Positions 29,384 through 39,211 of a stretch of 39,211 nucleotides of DNA are shown one piece after another. Position 1 is the stretch's first letter, and the number at the start of each line of letters is the position of its first letter. A program made the position numbers and the translations under genes. This DNA is from Bacillota bacterium (lineage in GTDB: Bacteria > Bacillota > Sulfobacillia > JAJZYS01 > JAJYTV01), in contig JAJZAT010000028.1 in NCBI GenBank assembly GCA_021799275.1, positions 1 through 39,211 on the forward strand, written 5' to 3'. The notes beneath the pieces were generated by a model. The model was not told where the DNA came from. It saw nothing but the letters and a program-made list of their open reading frames with translations, and ran no database searches.

Positions 29384-31138
29384 ATGAAAATGAACCGATG
29401 GGCCGCCTTGAGTGGCCTCATTGGCTCCGCGGCCCTGCTATTGGCCGCGTGCGGCGGCGGTGGCGGCACGTCCGCGACCCAGGCGCCGCTGCAGAAGTCG
29501 AACACCCTCGTGACCGCCCTGCCTTTGCAGGTGGGCATCACGGACTATGCGCCGATCGCGAACGCCTCGGCGTACACGATCTACAACAGCGGCGTCGAGT
29601 ACATGATGTGGGCGCCGGTCGTGATGGTGTCCGGAGCCGACACGATCGACTGGGCCGACTCGCTCGCGTCCAAGATCACGACGAACGCGAACGACACCCA
29701 GTACACGGTGACGCTGAAGAACTGGAACTGGTCGAACGGCCAGCCGATCACGGCGGAGGACGTGGCCTGGACGACCGACGTCCTGCTCGCGGCCTGCAAC
29801 ATGAAGAGCCCGCCCTACACCTACGGCGGCTGCGGCTTCGGCGGCCTGCCGCCCAGCTCGGCGCACGGCGTCCTGACGGGCGCGACGGCGAAGGGCCAGC
29901 ACACGGTCGTCTTTACACTCAACAAGTCCGTGAACCCCGTGTACTTTGAGCTGAACGGCCTCGGCCAGATCCAGCCGATGCCGAAGTCGATCTGGAACAG
30001 GGGCAGCTACGCGGCGACGCTCAAGCTCCTCTCGCAGATCTACAACAAGCCGACCTCGTCCGAGTACAAGGTCGTGTCGGGCCCGTACAAGTTCAAGTCG
30101 GCGATCAACGACGAGTCCTACACCTTCGTGCCGAACCCGAAGTACGGCGGCCACAAGGCCACGCTGACCTGGGTGAACCAGTATGAGGCTTCGGACTCGG
30201 CGGAGTTCGCCGCCCTGAAGAAGAACCAGATCAACGCCGGCTACCTGACGACCTCCATGTACGGTTCGGCGAGCCAGCTCAAGGGCCAGTACAAGCAGTC
30301 CCTCAGCCAGGGCTTCTGCTGGTACGGCATCGAGCTCAACTCGGCCCCGAACTCCCTCGATGTCGGCGCGGCGTTCCAGGACCAGAAGGTCCGTCAGGCG
30401 CTCGAGTACGGCATCGACCAGAACGCCATCGGCAAGGTGCTCGACGGCACCTTGAACGGCAAGCAGCTCTGGGTGCCGAACTACTCGGCGATTCCGTCGG
30501 GATTCTCCAAGCTGACGCAGGCGGTGTTCGGCGTCTCCTCGATCCCGAACGCCTATCCGTTTGACCCGACCAAGGGCAAGCAGGTCCTCGAGCAGGCTGG
30601 CTGGAGCCTCAACTCGGCGGGCGTCATGCAGAAGAACGGCGTCCAGCTGAAGTTCCCGGTGTTCTACGACTCGGGCTCGACCGAGACGGCGAACGCCGCG
30701 GTCATCCTGCAGCAGGACTGGGCCAAGATGGGCGTCAAGATCACCCCGCAGCCAGTCGCGTTCGACACCCTCGTCGCCATGTCCGACGCCCAGGGCGCCG
30801 CCAACAAGTGGGCCATCAACTGGACGGGCGGCTGGTGCTACGAGCCGAACTTCTACCCGACGGGCGGCGGCATGTGGGGCTACTACGACAGCCAGGACGA
30901 CTACAACTACACGCCGTTCAACCAGGCCGTCGCGAACGCGTACCTGCCGGGCACCCCGGCGCAGGCGCAGCAGCGGATGCTCGCTTACGCCCAGGCGACC
31001 GCGAAGGACCTGCCGTTCCTGTGGCAGCCGGGCGGCTACGCGGTGAACGAGTTCGCGCCGTACCTCCACGGTCTCAACAAGTACTTCAACCCGGTGCAGG
31101 CGTTCACCATGATCAACTGGGTGACGATCTCCCACTAG
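29384..31138 (+). CDS. Family 5 substrate-binding lipoprotein of a peptide/nickel-type ABC importer (copy 1)
   Basis: The 584-residue protein starts with a lipoprotein signal ending LLLAAC (C23). A Gly/Ser/Thr-rich tether follows, then the two-lobed SBP_bac_5 body: VEYMMWAPVVMVS, VTLKNWNWSNGQPITAEDVAW, SEYKVVSGPYKFKS, QKVRQALEYGID and the C-terminal PFNQAVANAYLPGTPAQAQQ. It should bind peptides or other small ligands outside the membrane. Four cysteines in the mature part are shared by all three copies: two around the YGGCGFGG loop, one in QGFCWYG and one in GGWCYEP. AAGGAGG precedes the ATG. Codon use is strongly biased, suggesting high expression. It is followed by two hairpins and then its permease genes. 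Confidence 0.95.
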   Translation: MKMNRWAALSGLIGSAALLLAACGGGGGTSATQAPLQKSNTLVTALPLQVGITDYAPIANASAYTIYNSGVEYMMWAPVVMVSGADTIDWADSLASKITTNANDTQYTVTLKNWNWSNGQPITAEDVAWTTDVLLAACNMKSPPYTYGGCGFGGLPPSSAHGVLTGATAKGQHTVVFTLNKSVNPVYFELNGLGQIQPMPKSIWNRGSYAATLKLLSQIYNKPTSSEYKVVSGPYKFKSAINDESYTFVPNPKYGGHKATLTWVNQYEASDSAEFAALKKNQINAGYLTTSMYGSASQLKGQYKQSLSQGFCWYGIELNSAPNSLDVGAAFQDQKVRQALEYGIDQNAIGKVLDGTLNGKQLWVPNYSAIPSGFSKLTQAVFGVSSIPNAYPFDPTKGKQVLEQAGWSLNSAGVMQKNGVQLKFPVFYDSGSTETANAAVILQQDWAKMGVKITPQPVAFDTLVAMSDAQGAANKWAINWTGGWCYEPNFYPTGGGMWGYYDSQDDYNYTPFNQAVANAYLPGTPAQAQQRMLAYAQATAKDLPFLWQPGGYAVNEFAPYLHGLNKYFNPVQAFTMINWVTISH

Positions 31139-31150
31139 GTCGCGCGACCG

Positions 31151-31206
31151 CTGATCCTGCGGATCAGCCGGGCGGGTGGGGCCGAACGCGGCCCCACCCG
31201 CCCGGG
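31151..31206 (+). terminator. Two adjacent hairpins between SBP1 and its permease gene
   Basis: CTGATCC/GGATCAG (31151-31167) is immediately followed by a 17-bp GC stem, 31168-31184 with 31189-31205 (loop AACG). There is no T tract. The position suggests partial termination or mRNA stabilisation, giving more binding protein than permease. Confidence 0.6.
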
Positions 31207-31306
31207 CACGTCGCCGAGGCGCTCGTCGGGCTCCGCCTGATGGCGCGGCGGACTGGCCGAGGGTTGTGACGACGAGCGTAGTCGCAAGTCTGGTGGGGGT
31301 GATGAG

Positions 31307-32215
31307 GTGTCCGCGCTGCCCAACATGGCGCCAGAGGTACAGTCTACGCTGGCCCATGGCGAAGAGGGGACTTCCCGAGCCTGGAGAGCGTTCTGGCGCA
31401 ACCCGCTGGCCGTCGCCGGCGTGACGATTCTCGTGTTCCTGGTCCTGTTTTCCTGGGTGGGGCCGCTCGTCTACCATGCGAGCGCCTACACGACAAGCCT
31501 TTCGAACATTGTGCAGGCGCCGACCGCGGCGCACATCCTCGGCACGGACGCCCTCGGCCGCGACAATCTCGCGCGGCTGATGCTCGGGGGGCAGATTTCC
31601 CTGATCGTCGGCTTTGCGGCGGCGGTGGTCGGCGTCTTCATCGGCGTCGTCTACGGGCTCGTCGCGGCCCAGTTCGGCGGCTGGACGGACACGATCCTGA
31701 TGCGCATCGTGGACATCACGCTGGCCATCCCGTCGATCTACGTCCTGCTGCTGCTGGACGCGGTGCTGAAGCCGAACGTCTACGTGATGATCTTCATCAT
31801 CGCGGTGACGTCCTGGCAGGGCATCGCGCGTATCGTGCGCAGCGAGGTGCTGAGCCTCAAGACCCGCGAGTTCGTCGAGGCCGCGAGGGCCGCGGGTGCG
31901 GGCTGGCTGCGCATCATGGCCCGCCACTTCCTGCCGAACTCGATGGGCTCGATCATCGTGTACACGACGTTCGCGGTCGGCGCCGGCATCCTGACGCTGG
32001 CGGGCCTCTCGTTCCTGGGACTCGGGCTGCCGCCGCCGGCGCCGAACTGGGGCCAGGCGATCTCGGACGGCATCCAGTACGAGTTCCAGAACGCCTGGTG
32101 GCTGATCTACCCGCCCGGTCTCCTGATTGTGGCGGCGGAGCTCTGCGTGAACTTCCTGGGTGACGCCTTCAACGCGGCGTTCGATCCGAGGCTCCAGGGA
32201 AGGGGCGGCGCCTGA
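31307..32215 (+). CDS. Peptide/nickel-type ABC importer permease, DppC-like (copy 1)
   Basis: The 302-residue protein has a cytosolic start with WRAFWRNPLAVAG, the first helix of DppC/OppC proteins, then the segment ILGTDALGRDNLARLMLGG. The EAA loop is EAARAAGAGWLRIMARHFLPN (in part), which contacts the ATPase. NWGQAISDG and FDPRLQGR close the protein. About six helices. The GTG start follows a GGGGGTGA site. Its stop overlaps the following permease ATG (TGATG). The order C before B is the reverse of the common dppBC arrangement. Confidence 0.94.
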   Translation: MSALPNMAPEVQSTLAHGEEGTSRAWRAFWRNPLAVAGVTILVFLVLFSWVGPLVYHASAYTTSLSNIVQAPTAAHILGTDALGRDNLARLMLGGQISLIVGFAAAVVGVFIGVVYGLVAAQFGGWTDTILMRIVDITLAIPSIYVLLLLDAVLKPNVYVMIFIIAVTSWQGIARIVRSEVLSLKTREFVEAARAAGAGWLRIMARHFLPNSMGSIIVYTTFAVGAGILTLAGLSFLGLGLPPPAPNWGQAISDGIQYEFQNAWWLIYPPGLLIVAAELCVNFLGDAFNAAFDPRLQGRGGA

Positions 32216-33168
32216 TGCTGAACTACATCATCCGCCGACTGGTGGAGGCCATCCCGACGCTGCTCGGCGTTACGATCATCACGTTCGTGCTGGCGCACCT
32301 GGTGCCGGGCAACCCGGCCCTCGTGATGCTCGGACCGCACGCCAACGCCCGCTCGATCGCGCTTCTCACACACCAGCTTGGTCTGGACAAGCCGCTTCCG
32401 GTACAGTACCTCGACTGGCTCTGGATGGTCCTGCACGGCAACCTCGGCGTGTCGTACTACCAGAACGTCCCGGTGCTGCAGCTGATCGAGACGGCGACGC
32501 CGCGCACCCTGGCGATCGTCGGCATCGGCACCCTGATCGCCGACATCCTGTCGATCATCCAGGGCATCTACCAGGCGCACGTGAAGAACAGCTTCGCGGA
32601 CAACCTGATCTCGGTGGTCGCGTACTTCCTGTACTCGATGCCGATCTTCTGGCTGGGCGTGCTGATGGTGATCTGGTTCTCGATCGACATCCCGCTCTTT
32701 CCGCCGGGCGGCATCCAGGACCCCGGCGTGACGAACGTGACGTTCGGCATGTGGGTGGCGCACATCGCCTTGCCGGTGATCACGATCGTGATCGCCACAG
32801 TGGCGTTCTGGGGCCGGTTCATGCGCTCGTCGGTGATCGAGACCTTGATCCAGGACTACATCCGGACGGCCAGGGCCAAGGGCGTGACGGAGTACACGGT
32901 GCTGATGCGCCACGCGTTCCGCAACTCGCTCCTGCCGCTCATCACTTTGATCGGCTTCTCGATCCCGGGCCTCTTCGGCGGCGCCCTGCTGGTGGAAGAG
33001 GTGTTCAACTATCCGGGCCTCGGCCTCCTGTTTTACCAGGCGGCCATCCAGCGCGATTACCCGATCGCGTTCGGCATCACCTTGATCATCGGTATCCTGA
33101 CGATCCTCGGGAACCTCCTCGCCGACGTGCTCTACGCCGTCGTCGACCCCCGCATCCGCTACAACTGA
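32215..33168 (+). CDS. Peptide/nickel-type ABC importer permease, DppB-like (copy 1)
   Basis: The 317-residue protein starts with the DppB-type helix YIIRRLVEAIPTLLGVT, then LAHLVPGNPA and the extracytoplasmic domain with LGLDKPLPVQYLDWL. It continues with YFLYSMPIFWLGVLMV, the EAA loop RTARAKGVTEYTVLMRHAFRN (in part) and EEVFNYPGLGLLFYQA, ending ADVLYAVVDPRIRYN. It completes the membrane part of the importer with the preceding gene. No ATPase genes follow. A hairpin terminator candidate lies 13 bases after the stop, so the ATPases are encoded elsewhere or downstream of the window. Confidence 0.95.
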   Translation: MLNYIIRRLVEAIPTLLGVTIITFVLAHLVPGNPALVMLGPHANARSIALLTHQLGLDKPLPVQYLDWLWMVLHGNLGVSYYQNVPVLQLIETATPRTLAIVGIGTLIADILSIIQGIYQAHVKNSFADNLISVVAYFLYSMPIFWLGVLMVIWFSIDIPLFPPGGIQDPGVTNVTFGMWVAHIALPVITIVIATVAFWGRFMRSSVIETLIQDYIRTARAKGVTEYTVLMRHAFRNSLLPLITLIGFSIPGLFGGALLVEEVFNYPGLGLLFYQAAIQRDYPIAFGITLIIGILTILGNLLADVLYAVVDPRIRYN

Positions 33169-33666: not shown

Positions 33667-35421
33667 ATGAACATGCACCGATGGGCCGCTCTCGGCGGGC
33701 TCATTGGCTCCGCGGCCATCCTGCTCGCTGCCTGTGGCGGCAGCACCACCTCCTCCAAAACGGAGGCGCCTCTGCAGAAGTCGAACACCATCGTCACCGC
33801 TCTCCCGCTGCAGGTCGGCATCACCGACTACGCGCCGATCGCGAACGCGTCGGCGTACACCATCTACAACAGCGCGGTCGAATACATGATGTGGGCACCC
33901 GTCGTGATGGTGTCGAGCTCCGACACCATCGACTGGTCGGACTCCCTGGCGGCGAAGATCTCGACGAGCCACGAGGACCAGGTCTACACCGTGACGCTCA
34001 AGAACTGGAAGTGGTCGAACGGCAAGTCGATCACGGCCGATGACGTCGCGTGGACGACGAACGTGCTGCTCGCCTCATGCACGATGAAGAGCCCGCCTTA
34101 CAGCTACGGCGGCTGCGGCTTTGGCGGCCTGCCGCCCAACTCGGACCACGCGGTGCTGCAGAGCGCGGTGGCCAAGGGACCGCACACCGTCGTCTTCACC
34201 CTCGACAAGCCGGCGAACCCGGTCTGGTTCGAGCTGAACGGGCTCGGCCAGATCCAGCCCATGCCGCGCGCCATCTGGGACAAGGGAAGCTACAGCGACA
34301 CCCTCACCCTGCTGTCGCAGATCTACAACAAGCCGACATCCCCCGAGTACAAGGCGGTGTCGGGACCCTACAAGTTCAGGTCGGCAATCCAGAACGAGTC
34401 CTACACCTTTGTCCCGAACCCGTCCTATGGCGGGCACAAGGCGACCCTGACCTGGGTCAACCAGTACGAGGCGTCGGACTCCGCGGAGTTCGCGGCGCTC
34501 AAGAAGAACGTGATCAACGCAGGCTATATCACGCCGAGCATGTTCGGTTCCGCGAGCCAGCTCAAGGGTCAGTACACCCAGTGGCTGTCGCAGGGCTTCT
34601 GTTGGCAGGGCGCGATGCTCAATTCCGCGCCCAATTCGCTCGACGTCGGCGGCGCGTTCCAGGATCAGAAGGTGCGCGAAGCCCTGCAGTACGGCATCGA
34701 CGAGAAGGCTCTCGGCCAGGTGCTCTACGGTAACTTGAGCGGCAAGAGCCTCTCGGTGCCCGTGTACTCGGCCGTGCCGTCGGGATTCGCTTCCTTGACG
34801 GAGGCGGTGTTCGGTGTCAGCGAGATCCCTGAGCAGTTCCCGTTCAACCCCCAGAAGGGCAAGCAGGTGCTGCAGCAGGACGGCTGGAGTCTCAACGCCC
34901 AGGGCGTCATGGAGAAGAACGGCGTGCAGCTGAAGTTCCCGGTCTTCTTCGACTCCGGCGCGACCGAGACGGCCAATGCCGCGGTCATCCTGCAGCAGGA
35001 CTGGGCCAAGATGGGCGTCAAGATCACACCGCAGCCGGTGGCGTTCGATACGCTGGTGGCGATGTCGGACGCGCAGGGCGCCGCGACGAAGTGGGCCATG
35101 AACTGGTATGGCGGCTGGTGCTACGAGCCCAACTTCTACCCGACGGGCGGCGGCATGTGGGCGTACTACAGCGCCCAGGACGACTACAACTACAAGCCGT
35201 TCTTCAAGGCCGTGGCCGACTCGTACCTGCCGGGCACGCCTGCCGAGGCCCAGCAGCGCATGTACGCCTACGCCATGGCGACGGCCACCGATCTGCCGAT
35301 GCTCTGGATGCCGACCGGCTACTCCGTCAACGAATCCGCACCGTACATCCACGGGCTGCAGAAGTACTACAATCCCGTCCAGGCCTTCACCCAGATGAAT
35401 TGGGTGACGATCTCCCACTGA
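33667..35421 (+). CDS. Family 5 substrate-binding lipoprotein (copy 2, no adjacent permease)
   Basis: The 584-residue protein is a full paralogue of copies 1 and 3, with lipobox LLLAAC, the shared core VEYMMWAPVVMVS, the loop YSYGGCGFGGLP, QGFCWQG, GGWCYEPNFYPTGGGMWAYY, and the end NWVTISH. It is more diverged than the other two are from each other. Examples are QQDGWSLNAQGVMEKNG and FFDSGATETANAA in place of the copy 1/3 forms, and AMLNSAPNSLDV where the others have ELNSA. It has its own leader, ribosome site and downstream hairpin. It is not followed by permease genes, so it probably shares a translocator with a flanking copy and may bind a different ligand. Confidence 0.94.
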   Translation: MNMHRWAALGGLIGSAAILLAACGGSTTSSKTEAPLQKSNTIVTALPLQVGITDYAPIANASAYTIYNSAVEYMMWAPVVMVSSSDTIDWSDSLAAKISTSHEDQVYTVTLKNWKWSNGKSITADDVAWTTNVLLASCTMKSPPYSYGGCGFGGLPPNSDHAVLQSAVAKGPHTVVFTLDKPANPVWFELNGLGQIQPMPRAIWDKGSYSDTLTLLSQIYNKPTSPEYKAVSGPYKFRSAIQNESYTFVPNPSYGGHKATLTWVNQYEASDSAEFAALKKNVINAGYITPSMFGSASQLKGQYTQWLSQGFCWQGAMLNSAPNSLDVGGAFQDQKVREALQYGIDEKALGQVLYGNLSGKSLSVPVYSAVPSGFASLTEAVFGVSEIPEQFPFNPQKGKQVLQQDGWSLNAQGVMEKNGVQLKFPVFFDSGATETANAAVILQQDWAKMGVKITPQPVAFDTLVAMSDAQGAATKWAMNWYGGWCYEPNFYPTGGGMWAYYSAQDDYNYKPFFKAVADSYLPGTPAEAQQRMYAYAMATATDLPMLWMPTGYSVNESAPYIHGLQKYYNPVQAFTQMNWVTISH

Positions 35422-36034: not shown

Positions 36035-37789
36035 ATGAAGATGCGCCGATGGGCCGCCCTTAGCGGTCTGATCGGGTCCGCGGCGATCCTGCTCGCGGCG
36101 TGCGGCGGATCGACCGGCACGTCCACAACCCAGGCGCCGCTGCAGAAGGAGAACACGATCGTCACGGCCCTGCCGCTGCAGACCGCGATCACCGACTACG
36201 CGCCGATCGCGAACGCGTCGGCGTACACGATCTACAACAGCGGCGTCGAGTACATGATGTGGGCGCCGGTCGTGATGGTGTCGGGCTCCGACACGATCGA
36301 CTGGGCCGACTCACTCGCGTCCAAGATCACGACGAACGCGAACGACACCCAGTACACGGTGACGCTCAAGAACTGGAACTGGTCGAACGGCCAGGCGATC
36401 ACCGCCCAGGACGTAGCCTGGACCACGAACGTGCTGCTCGCGGCCTGCACCATGAAGAGCCCGCCGTACACCTACGGCGGCTGCGGCTTCGGCGGCCTGC
36501 CGCAAAGCTCGGCGCACGCCGTCCTGACGGGCGCGACCGCGCAGGGCAAGCACACGGTCGTCTTCACGCTGAACAAGTCCGTGAACCCCGTGTACTTCGA
36601 GCTGAACGGCCTTGGCCAGATCCAGCCGATGCCGCAGAAGATCTGGGACCAGGGCAGCTACGCGGCCACGCTCAAGCTCCTCTCGCAGATCTACAACAAG
36701 CCGAACTCGTCCGAGTACAAGGTCGTGTCGGGCCCGTACAAGTTCCAGTCCATGATCAACGACGAGTCCTACACCTTCGTGCCGAACCCGAAGTACGGCG
36801 GCCACAAGGCCACCGCGACCTGGGTGGAGCAGTACGAGGCTTCGGACTCGGCGGAGTTCGCCGCCCTGAAGAAGAACCAGATCAACGCCGGCTACCTGAC
36901 CGCCAGCATGTACGGCTCCGCGAGCCAGCTCAAGGGCCAGTACAAGAAGTCCCTGAGCCAGGGCTTCTGCTGGTACGGCGTCGAGCTCAACTCGGCCAAG
37001 AACTCGCTCAATGTCGGCCCGGCCTTCCAGGACCAGAAGGTCCGCGCCGCGCTCGAGTACGGCATCGACCAGAACGCCATCGGCAAGGTGCTCGACGGCA
37101 CCCTGGACGGTCAGAACATGTGGATTCCGAACTACTCGGCCATTCCTGACGGGTTCTCTTCGCTGACCAAGGCGGTGTTCGGCGTAGCGTCGATCCCGAA
37201 CGCCTACCCGTTCGACCCGACCAAGGGCAAGCAGGTCCTCGAGCAGGACGGCTGGAGCCTCAACTCGGCGGGCGTCATGCAGAAGAACGGCGTCCAGCTG
37301 AAGTTCCCGGTGTTCTACGACTCGGGTTCGACCGAGACGGCCAACGCCGCGGTCATCCTGCAGCAGGACTGGGCCAAGATGGGCGTCCAGATCACGCCGC
37401 AGCCAGTCGCGTTCGACACGCTCGTCGGCATGTCCGACGCGCAGGGCGCCGCGAGCAAGTGGGCCATGAACTGGACCGGCGGCTGGTGCTACGAGCCGAA
37501 CTTCTACCCGACCGGTGGCGGCATGTGGGGCTACTACGACAGCCAGGACGACTACAACTACACGCCGTTCAACCAGGCCGTCGCGAACGCGTACCTGCCG
37601 GGCACCCCGGCGCAGGCGCAGCAGCGGATGTACCAGTACGCTGTCGCAACCGCGAAGGACCTGCCGTTCCTGTGGCAGCCGGGCGGCTACGCGGTGAACG
37701 AGATCGCACCGTACGTCCACGGCCTCAACAAGTACTACAACCCCGTGCAGGCCTTCACCCTGATGAACTGGGTGACGATCTCCCACTAA
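36035..37789 (+). CDS. Family 5 substrate-binding lipoprotein (copy 3)
   Basis: The 584-residue lipoprotein is very close to copy 1 in both protein and DNA, with long identical stretches. Differences include QTAITDYAPIA (copy 1 QVGITDYAPIA), LNGQ/LDGQ-type changes near LDGTLDGQNMW, and QEDGWS-type Asp for Ala at EQDGWSLNSAGV. Lipobox, tether, the four conserved mature cysteines and the ending NWVTISH are retained. A distinct leader, ribosome site AAGGGAGG, and a palindromic hairpin precede and follow it. It heads the second SBP-permease cassette. Confidence 0.95.
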   Translation: MKMRRWAALSGLIGSAAILLAACGGSTGTSTTQAPLQKENTIVTALPLQTAITDYAPIANASAYTIYNSGVEYMMWAPVVMVSGSDTIDWADSLASKITTNANDTQYTVTLKNWNWSNGQAITAQDVAWTTNVLLAACTMKSPPYTYGGCGFGGLPQSSAHAVLTGATAQGKHTVVFTLNKSVNPVYFELNGLGQIQPMPQKIWDQGSYAATLKLLSQIYNKPNSSEYKVVSGPYKFQSMINDESYTFVPNPKYGGHKATATWVEQYEASDSAEFAALKKNQINAGYLTASMYGSASQLKGQYKKSLSQGFCWYGVELNSAKNSLNVGPAFQDQKVRAALEYGIDQNAIGKVLDGTLDGQNMWIPNYSAIPDGFSSLTKAVFGVASIPNAYPFDPTKGKQVLEQDGWSLNSAGVMQKNGVQLKFPVFYDSGSTETANAAVILQQDWAKMGVQITPQPVAFDTLVGMSDAQGAASKWAMNWTGGWCYEPNFYPTGGGMWGYYDSQDDYNYTPFNQAVANAYLPGTPAQAQQRMYQYAVATAKDLPFLWQPGGYAVNEIAPYVHGLNKYYNPVQAFTLMNWVTISH

Positions 37790-37833
37790 GGCCGCAGCAC
37801 GCGAGACCCGGATCTGCCGTTCCCGGGGAGAAG

Positions 37834-37864
37834 TGGCGGGGCCTAGGCCCCGCCAGTCTTCTTC
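37834..37864 (+). terminator. Palindromic hairpin after SBP3
   Basis: TGGCGGGGCC (37834-37843) and GGCCCCGCCA (37846-37855) form a near-continuous palindrome followed by GTCTTCTTC. The following bases are moderately T-rich. The permease gene lies beyond it. Confidence 0.6.
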
Positions 37865-38011
37865 GGACGCACAAGTGCTAAACGACGTGTCGCAATGGGC
37901 CTAAAGACGCTTGCCTTTTTACGCATTGGAGGCATAAACTCCTCGAGGTGCGTCGAAGCCGGCGGGCGATCGGAGGGCTCGTCGGCCGCACGGCAGCGGG
38001 GAGGGAATCAT

Positions 38012-38920
38012 TTGTCCGCTCTGCCCAAGGTTGAGCCTGACACGCAAGGGAACCTTGCACGCGAGCAGTCGGGGATGTCGCGCGAGTGGAAGGCGTTCTG
38101 GCGCAACCCGCTTGCGGTCGCCGGCGTGGCGATCCTGGTGTTCCTGGTCCTCTTTTCCTGGGTAGGGCCGCTCATCTATCACGTGAGTGCCTACACCACG
38201 AGTCTTTCGGACATTGTGCAGGCGCCAAGCCAGGCGCACGTCCTCGGCACCGACGCCCTCGGCCGCGACAATCTCGCGCGGCTGATGCTCGGTGGCCAGT
38301 GGTCGCTGATCGTCGGCTTCGCTTCTGCGGTGTTCGGCGTGCTGATCGGGGTCGTCTACGGTCTCTTCTCGGCGCAGTTCGGCGGCTGGGCCGACACCGT
38401 CCTGATGCGCATCGTGGACATCACGCTGGCCATTCCGTCGATCTACATCCTGCTGCTCCTCGACGCCGTGCTGAAGCCGAACGTCTACGTAATGATCTTC
38501 ATCATCGCGATCACGTCCTGGCAGGGCATCGCGCGTATCGTGCGCAGCGAGGTGTTGAGCCTCAAGTCGCGCGAGTTCGTCGAGGCCGCGAGGGCCGCGG
38601 GTGCGAGCTGGCTGCGCATCATGTTCCGGCACTTCCTGCCGAACTCGATGGGCTCGATCATCGTGTACACGACGTTCGCGGTCGGTGGCGGCATCCTGAC
38701 CTTGGCGGGCCTCTCGTTCCTGGGCCTCGGGCTGCCGCCGCCGGCGCCGAACTGGGGCCAGGCGATCTCGGACGGCATCCAGTACGAGTTCCAGAACGCC
38801 TGGTGGCTGATCTACCCGCCCGGTCTCCTGATCGTGGCGGCAGAGCTCTGTGTGAACTTCCTGGGTGACGCCTTCAACGCGGCGTTCGACCCGAGACTTC
38901 AGGGAAGGGGCGGCGCCTGA
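38012..38920 (+). CDS. Peptide/nickel-type ABC importer permease, DppC-like (copy 2)
   Basis: The 302-residue protein is collinear with copy 1 and equal in length. It begins SALPKVEPDTQGNL after a TTG start, with GGGGAGGGAA upstream, matching the SALP start of copy 1. It carries WKAFWRNPLAVAG, VLGTDALGRDNLARLMLGG, the EAA loop EAARAAGASWLRIMFRHF and the same C-terminus FDPRLQGRGGA. DNA identity to copy 1 is much higher in the 3' half than at the 5' end. The stop overlaps the next ATG as in copy 1. An ATG at 38074 would remove the conserved N-terminus. Confidence 0.93.
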   Translation: MSALPKVEPDTQGNLAREQSGMSREWKAFWRNPLAVAGVAILVFLVLFSWVGPLIYHVSAYTTSLSDIVQAPSQAHVLGTDALGRDNLARLMLGGQWSLIVGFASAVFGVLIGVVYGLFSAQFGGWADTVLMRIVDITLAIPSIYILLLLDAVLKPNVYVMIFIIAITSWQGIARIVRSEVLSLKSREFVEAARAAGASWLRIMFRHFLPNSMGSIIVYTTFAVGGGILTLAGLSFLGLGLPPPAPNWGQAISDGIQYEFQNAWWLIYPPGLLIVAAELCVNFLGDAFNAAFDPRLQGRGGA

Positions 38921-39211
38921 TGCTGAACTACGTCATCCGGCGCTTGCTCGAAGCCATCCCGACGCTCCTCGGCATCACGATCATCACGTTCGTGCTGGCG
39001 CACCTGGTGCCGGGCAACCCGGCCCTCGTGATGCTCGGACCGCACGCCAACGCCCGCTCGATCGCGCTTCTCACACACCAGCTGGGTCTGGACAAGCCGC
39101 TTCCGGTACAGTACCTCGACTGGCTCTGGATGGTCCTGCACGGCAACCTCGGCGTGTCGTACTACCAGAACGTCCCGGTGCTGCAGCTGATCGAGACGGC
39201 GACGCCGCGCA
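38920..39211 (+). CDS. Peptide/nickel-type ABC importer permease, DppB-like (copy 2), cut by the window end
   Basis: Only the first 97 codons or so are inside the window. The N-terminal helix reads YVIRRLLEAIPTLLGIT, then LAHLVPGNPA, LGLDKPLPVQYLDWL and the segment up to LQLIETATPR, where the sequence stops with the frame open. The start overlaps the DppC-like stop, as in copy 1. From 38977 on, the DNA is identical to copy 1 apart from one base, while the first 54 bases after the ATG differ at ten positions. Confidence 0.93.
   Translation, partial: MLNYVIRRLLEAIPTLLGITIITFVLAHLVPGNPALVMLGPHANARSIALLTHQLGLDKPLPVQYLDWLWMVLHGNLGVSYYQNVPVLQLIETATPR
38977..39211 (+). repeat. Nearly identical duplicate of 32272-32506
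   Basis: Base-by-base comparison of these 235 bases with 32272-32506 shows a single difference (CTT/CTG, synonymous Leu). The match begins abruptly after codon 19 of the permease gene and is still running at the window edge. Confidence 0.95.

Follow-up and report, generated by a model that had tools for sequence, protein, structure and literature searches.

Background

The locus examined here raises the question of why two copies of one permease gene, lying 6.7 kb apart and in direct orientation in the genome of an uncultured member of the Bacillota (Firmicutes), change abruptly from diverged to nearly identical DNA. The window, that is, the whole stretch of 39,211 nucleotides that was analysed, is the entire contig C41 of a 61-contig draft genome, and the second of the two gene copies is cut short by the end of this contig. 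The original prediction attributed the switch to recent gene conversion or recombination between the two gene cassettes.

In this paper we compare the two permease copies base by base, follow the second copy beyond the window, and set both against the corresponding genes of relatives in the same genus. An old duplication of the cassette with recurrent partial gene conversion, that is, concerted evolution, explains the tract best, and we put the probability of this reading at about 0.88.

Methods

Genomes are coded G000 for the source genome and G001, G002, G003 and G005 for relatives of the same genus; both dppB copies are readable in three species, G000, G002 and G005. The names 'DppB' and 'DppC' are used as labels for two types of permease only. 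The comparison of the dppB copies was ungapped, with copy 1 as the reference, and offsets were numbered from the A of the ATG. Recombination detection, which the original prediction had proposed as a check, was performed as a Sawyer/GENECONV-style permutation on DppC plus DppB with two complete same-genus relatives, giving 371 polymorphic columns.

Results

Layout of the duplicated cassette

The genes of interest, all on the forward strand, run in the order SBP1-DppC1-DppB1-SBP2-SBP3-DppC2-DppB2 and form a duplicated cassette of an Opp/Dpp-type ABC importer. Cassette 1 consists of the solute-binding lipoprotein SBP1 of the SBP_bac_5 family (29384..31138; Pfam PF00496, E=2e-49), the DppC1/OppC-type permease (31307..32215; PF00528 and PF12911) and the DppB1/OppB-type permease, or copy 1 (32215..33168; PF00528 and PF19300). 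Cassette 2 comprises SBP3 (36035..37789; PF00496), DppC2 (38012..38920; domain search and alignment) and the first 292 bp of DppB2 (38920..39211; PF19300), which is truncated by the contig end and whose 3' part appears to lie on a second contig (C58:1-476). For DppC2 we chose the TTG start that is homologous to the start of DppC1; the longest open reading frame begins upstream of it, at 37895. Between the cassettes lies SBP2 (33667..35421; PF00496), a third and the most diverged SBP paralogue (80% nucleotide identity), which has no permease pair of its own. An orthologue of SBP2 adjoins dppB1 downstream in G002 (88% amino acid identity), and the SBP in the equivalent place in G005 is nearer to SBP1 and SBP3.

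The assignment to the Opp/Dpp-type importers is based on Pfam domains (SBP_bac_5, OppB/C-type permeases) that score above the gathering thresholds. The best family for DppB1 and DppC1 is that of the Opp4/Nik-type peptide or nickel ABC importers, with nearly full-length best NCBIfam matches to Opp4B (NF045472) and Opp4C (NF045476); the scores (281.7 against a cut-off of 450, and 300.3 against 350) fall below the curated equivalog cut-offs, and so substrate and subtype are left without assignment. Within the stretches of the window that were examined, no ATPase genes belonging to the importer were found. An ABC ATPase at 24978 matches NodI/DrrA-type exporters and has an ABC-2 membrane protein after it. 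A comparison of the cassette with plasmids yielded no match.

Identity switch inside dppB

Copy 2 (ATG at 38920) differs from copy 1 (ATG at 32215) at offsets 13, 21, 24, 25, 28, 30, 33, 48, 55, 57 and 165. Our recount agrees exactly with the original figures of ten differences in the 54 bases that follow the ATG (38923..38976, the diverged and apparently unconverted segment) and one in the next 235 (38977..39211, the visible left part of the tract). Most of the differences in the first 19 codons are silent, and only I5V, V10L and V19I alter the protein. Fisher's test gives p = 2.4e-7 for the 54/235 split, with a breakpoint that was picked post hoc, a weakness from which the permutation test is free. 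In the latter, the longest concordant run of the paralogue pair spans 44 columns, or 64 when one mismatch is allowed, and none of 20,000 shuffles produced a run as long; with third positions alone, p = 1e-4 without a mismatch and 0 of 20,000 shuffles with one. The five between-species pairs had no comparable run, the longest being 9 columns and the smallest single-test p about 0.012. The identity of the two copies therefore changes abruptly, at silent sites as well, and to a degree beyond chance, as is characteristic of a gene conversion tract.

Contig end and right-hand boundary

Contig C41 stops exactly 127 bp past the last mismatch, and its terminal 127 bases (39085..39211) are identical to 32380-32506. 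A de Bruijn assembler of the SPAdes type, run at k = 127, leaves an exact overlap of 127 bp at contig ends, and the genomes of the nearest relatives come from SPAdes-style 'NODE' assemblies of metagenomes. We infer that C41 ends at a k = 127 assembly break, the value of k being deduced from the overlap. The left switch of the original prediction stands, but position 39,211, where its near-identical stretch stopped, is the end of the contig and not of the tract; that prediction had missed both the right-hand edge of the tract and the role of the assembly in ending the window.

Extending the comparison past the window, as had also been suggested, provides that boundary. Contig C58 starts at the position equivalent to 32693, and its first 103 bp are identical to copy 1. 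Differences then begin at 32796, 32799, 32805 and 32845, and amount to 15 in the last 373 bp of dppB. Homology to cassette 1 ends just past the dppB stop codon, with unrelated DNA beyond; the next gene, on the opposite strand, we take by eye from its sequence to be dihydrolipoamide-dehydrogenase-like. C58 probably continues copy 2, because apart from copy 1 it alone in the genome carries a close dppB 3' end and because the single SBP-DppC-DppB cassette of the sister genus has that gene as a near neighbour. The tract thus has a second boundary with a diverged far side, with 186 bp in between unseen. It would cover about 524 bp (offsets 58-581; 32272..32795 on the copy 1 side, by sequence comparison and permutation test), including the 186 unassembled bp of copy 2 (equivalent to 32507-32692), which are presumably also identical between the copies. 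At the start of C58, 103 copy-1-identical bases were observed where 127 were expected, that is, the contig begins 24 bp beyond the point predicted by a simple two-copy graph at k = 127. This shift may reflect a variant among strains, or an additional copy or third sequence that differs just before this point.

Paralogues nearest within genomes in three species

Over the last 375 bp of dppB, identity within genomes is 96.0% in G000, 97.9% in G002 and 92.5% in G005, and 85-90% between genomes. In a tree of the DppB 3' region the paralogues pair by genome, with support of 99/99 in G000 and 89/95 in G002; those of G005 pair with 99/99 in the ingroup-only tree and without support once an outgroup is added. 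Holding the B2 copies together, as orthology would have it, is rejected (p-AU 4e-86; 1e-11 with the ingroup only). In G000, G002 and G005, therefore, paralogues are nearer to each other than to their orthologues, which is the pattern of concerted evolution.

Replacement by DNA from another strain or a close species, rather than from the resident copy, is the best of the alternatives and still improbable. Strain variation is possible in a metagenome source, and the start of C58 misfits the two-copy graph; the outcome, however, is the identity of two resident copies, paralogues are nearest within genomes in three species, and an outside donor would need to have carried the resident copy's own allele.

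Can the switch be an artefact of assembly?

We regard it as very unlikely that the opening bases of copy 2 were wrongly joined to copy 1 sequence through a collapsed or mis-joined repeat, although C41 does end within the repeat, at exactly the distance given above, and metagenome contigs of the relatives likewise break in these genes. Mismatches 57 and 165 are spaced 108 bp apart, so that each copy 2 127-mer before the last contains a copy-2-specific base; all of these are unique to copy 2, the switch in identity is bridged, and the left edge is not mis-joined. The final 127-mer is the point at which the assembler stopped and not a jump, and the linear order from C41 to C58 is the sole non-circular resolution. 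A collapsed or mis-joined repeat, which had been named as the result that would overturn the original prediction, is accordingly contradicted at the left edge by 127-mers that span the switch. Our checks of contig ends covered selected stretches of the genome.

In G005, the start of contig C42 (L159) and the end of contig C74 (L161) share exactly 127 bp within an SBP gene, an overlap which indicates that near-identical SBP copies broke the assembly there also. An apparent frame break in dppB of G001 (L149, C64 at about 280-300), another fragmented copy of this gene, is explained by 10 consecutive N where a scaffold was joined.

Patchwork of divergence and age of the duplication

Divergence between the two cassettes of G000 falls from 39% in the first 90 nt of DppC, where DppC2 is 61% identical to DppC1, to 0.4% in the tract, and the edges are sharp. 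The 3' half of DppC is about 93% identical between the copies, and SBP1 and SBP3 share 90.6% of their nucleotides; a tract test on this SBP pair gave p = 0.013 for the longest run (1000 shuffles) and did not show one sharply edged tract of the kind found in dppB. The dppB stretch sits within a longer patchwork. Conversion at this locus has occurred repeatedly and not just once.

The DppC leaders, which are of two types, differ in the region upstream of the gene and in its first 90 nt. Type 1 is found in G000 copy 1, G001, G002 and G003, and type 2 in G000 copy 2 and G005; the leader of G000 copy 2 is 80% identical to that of G005 and 61% to that of its own copy 1. Genome searches with both leaders agree, type 2 being present over most of its length elsewhere only in G005, and a tree of DppC 1-330 separates the types with a 95/92 split. 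Since leader types are common across species and gene bodies are homogenised, an old duplication followed by recurrent conversion is indicated. On these few sequences, with both types together in one genome only, the duplication is placed before the split of the species. The type 2 leader of G005 occupies the position of the G000 type 1 leader, and so leaders may also be exchanged or lost.

Had each species duplicated its cassette in tandem, independently and recently and with no conversion, paralogues would likewise pair by genome. We consider this reading just as improbable as misassembly, as it is at odds with the uneven, sharply edged divergence of the G000 pair, with leader types 1 and 2 being common across species, and with the order permease pair-SBP-SBP, which G000 and G005 have in common.

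Hairpins between SBP and dppC

Strong hairpins lie between SBP1 and DppC1 in the type 1 leader (31154..31205), and a further hairpin lies between SBP3 and DppC2 in the type 2 leader (37835..37856). RNA folding gave -60.4 kcal/mol (z -6.8) for 31139-31215 and -33.9 kcal/mol (z -3.95) for 37820-37870. The hairpins are G+C-rich, and the first is without a clear run of T after it. Possible roles are those of attenuators, lowering permease relative to SBP expression, or of 3'-end stabilisers. Selection may keep the two leader types while conversion unifies the gene bodies, yielding one importer at two differently regulated loci, a tentative idea that we think is probably not correct.

Silent sites and constraint

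At third positions in the tract, the paralogues are 98.7% identical, compared with 69-78% to same-genus relatives; at offsets 1-57 the values are 68% between paralogues and 63-84% to relatives, so that in this segment the two copies are as distant from each other as species are. Strong purifying or codon-level constraint without recombination can be dismissed, for although this portion of DppB is conserved as protein, same-genus relatives depart from either copy at 22-31% of its third positions, so that the near-identity of the copies is the product of homogenisation and not of slow evolution.

Discussion

Silent-site homogenisation, the right-hand edge in C58 and the like behaviour of two more species all bear out gene conversion or recombination between the cassettes, as originally proposed. 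Under recurrent partial conversion of an old duplication, homologous recombination between the direct-orientation copies would repeatedly copy pieces from one onto the other. In the latest visible event, about 0.5 kb of one dppB, from offset 57/58 to 581, would have been overwritten by the other, and the first 19 codons and last 370 bp or so of the gene would have kept the older divergence. The exchange was probably within the genome and non-reciprocal, and presumably proceeded by RecA-dependent repair.

The locus offers a clear example, repeated in two further species, of gene conversion that is both partial and recurrent within a duplicated ABC importer of uncultured Bacillota. Conversion tracts cut metagenome assemblies, and contig ends within paralogous genes can mark recent conversion; gene trees built from converted loci will mislead.

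Comparison with known systems

The process itself is known, and the window is a further example of it, in a duplication of ABC-importer permeases. A targeted literature search returned no report of conversion in this gene class, which is weak evidence of absence. Concerted evolution of protein-coding duplicates by gene conversion in prokaryotes is described for tufA/tufB, mtrA-1/mtrA-2 and others (PMC6053082, PMC4632066); a text search of the former turned up neither transporters nor permeases. As in the tufA/tufB type of case so described, paralogues in the window are nearer than orthologues, silent sites are included, and the pattern recurs across species. Unlike those cases, the genes here are Opp/Dpp-type permeases in a tandem cassette, in one genus, and the gene is homogenised in part. 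Gene conversion is also known in repeat families of Mycobacterium tuberculosis and in rRNA operons of E. coli (PMC12046097, PMC13061034, PMC8022953). Those cases involve genes of other classes, and long reads from isolates are used in the M. tuberculosis work; what they have in common with the present locus is conversion between paralogues within a genome, in regions that short reads resolve poorly.
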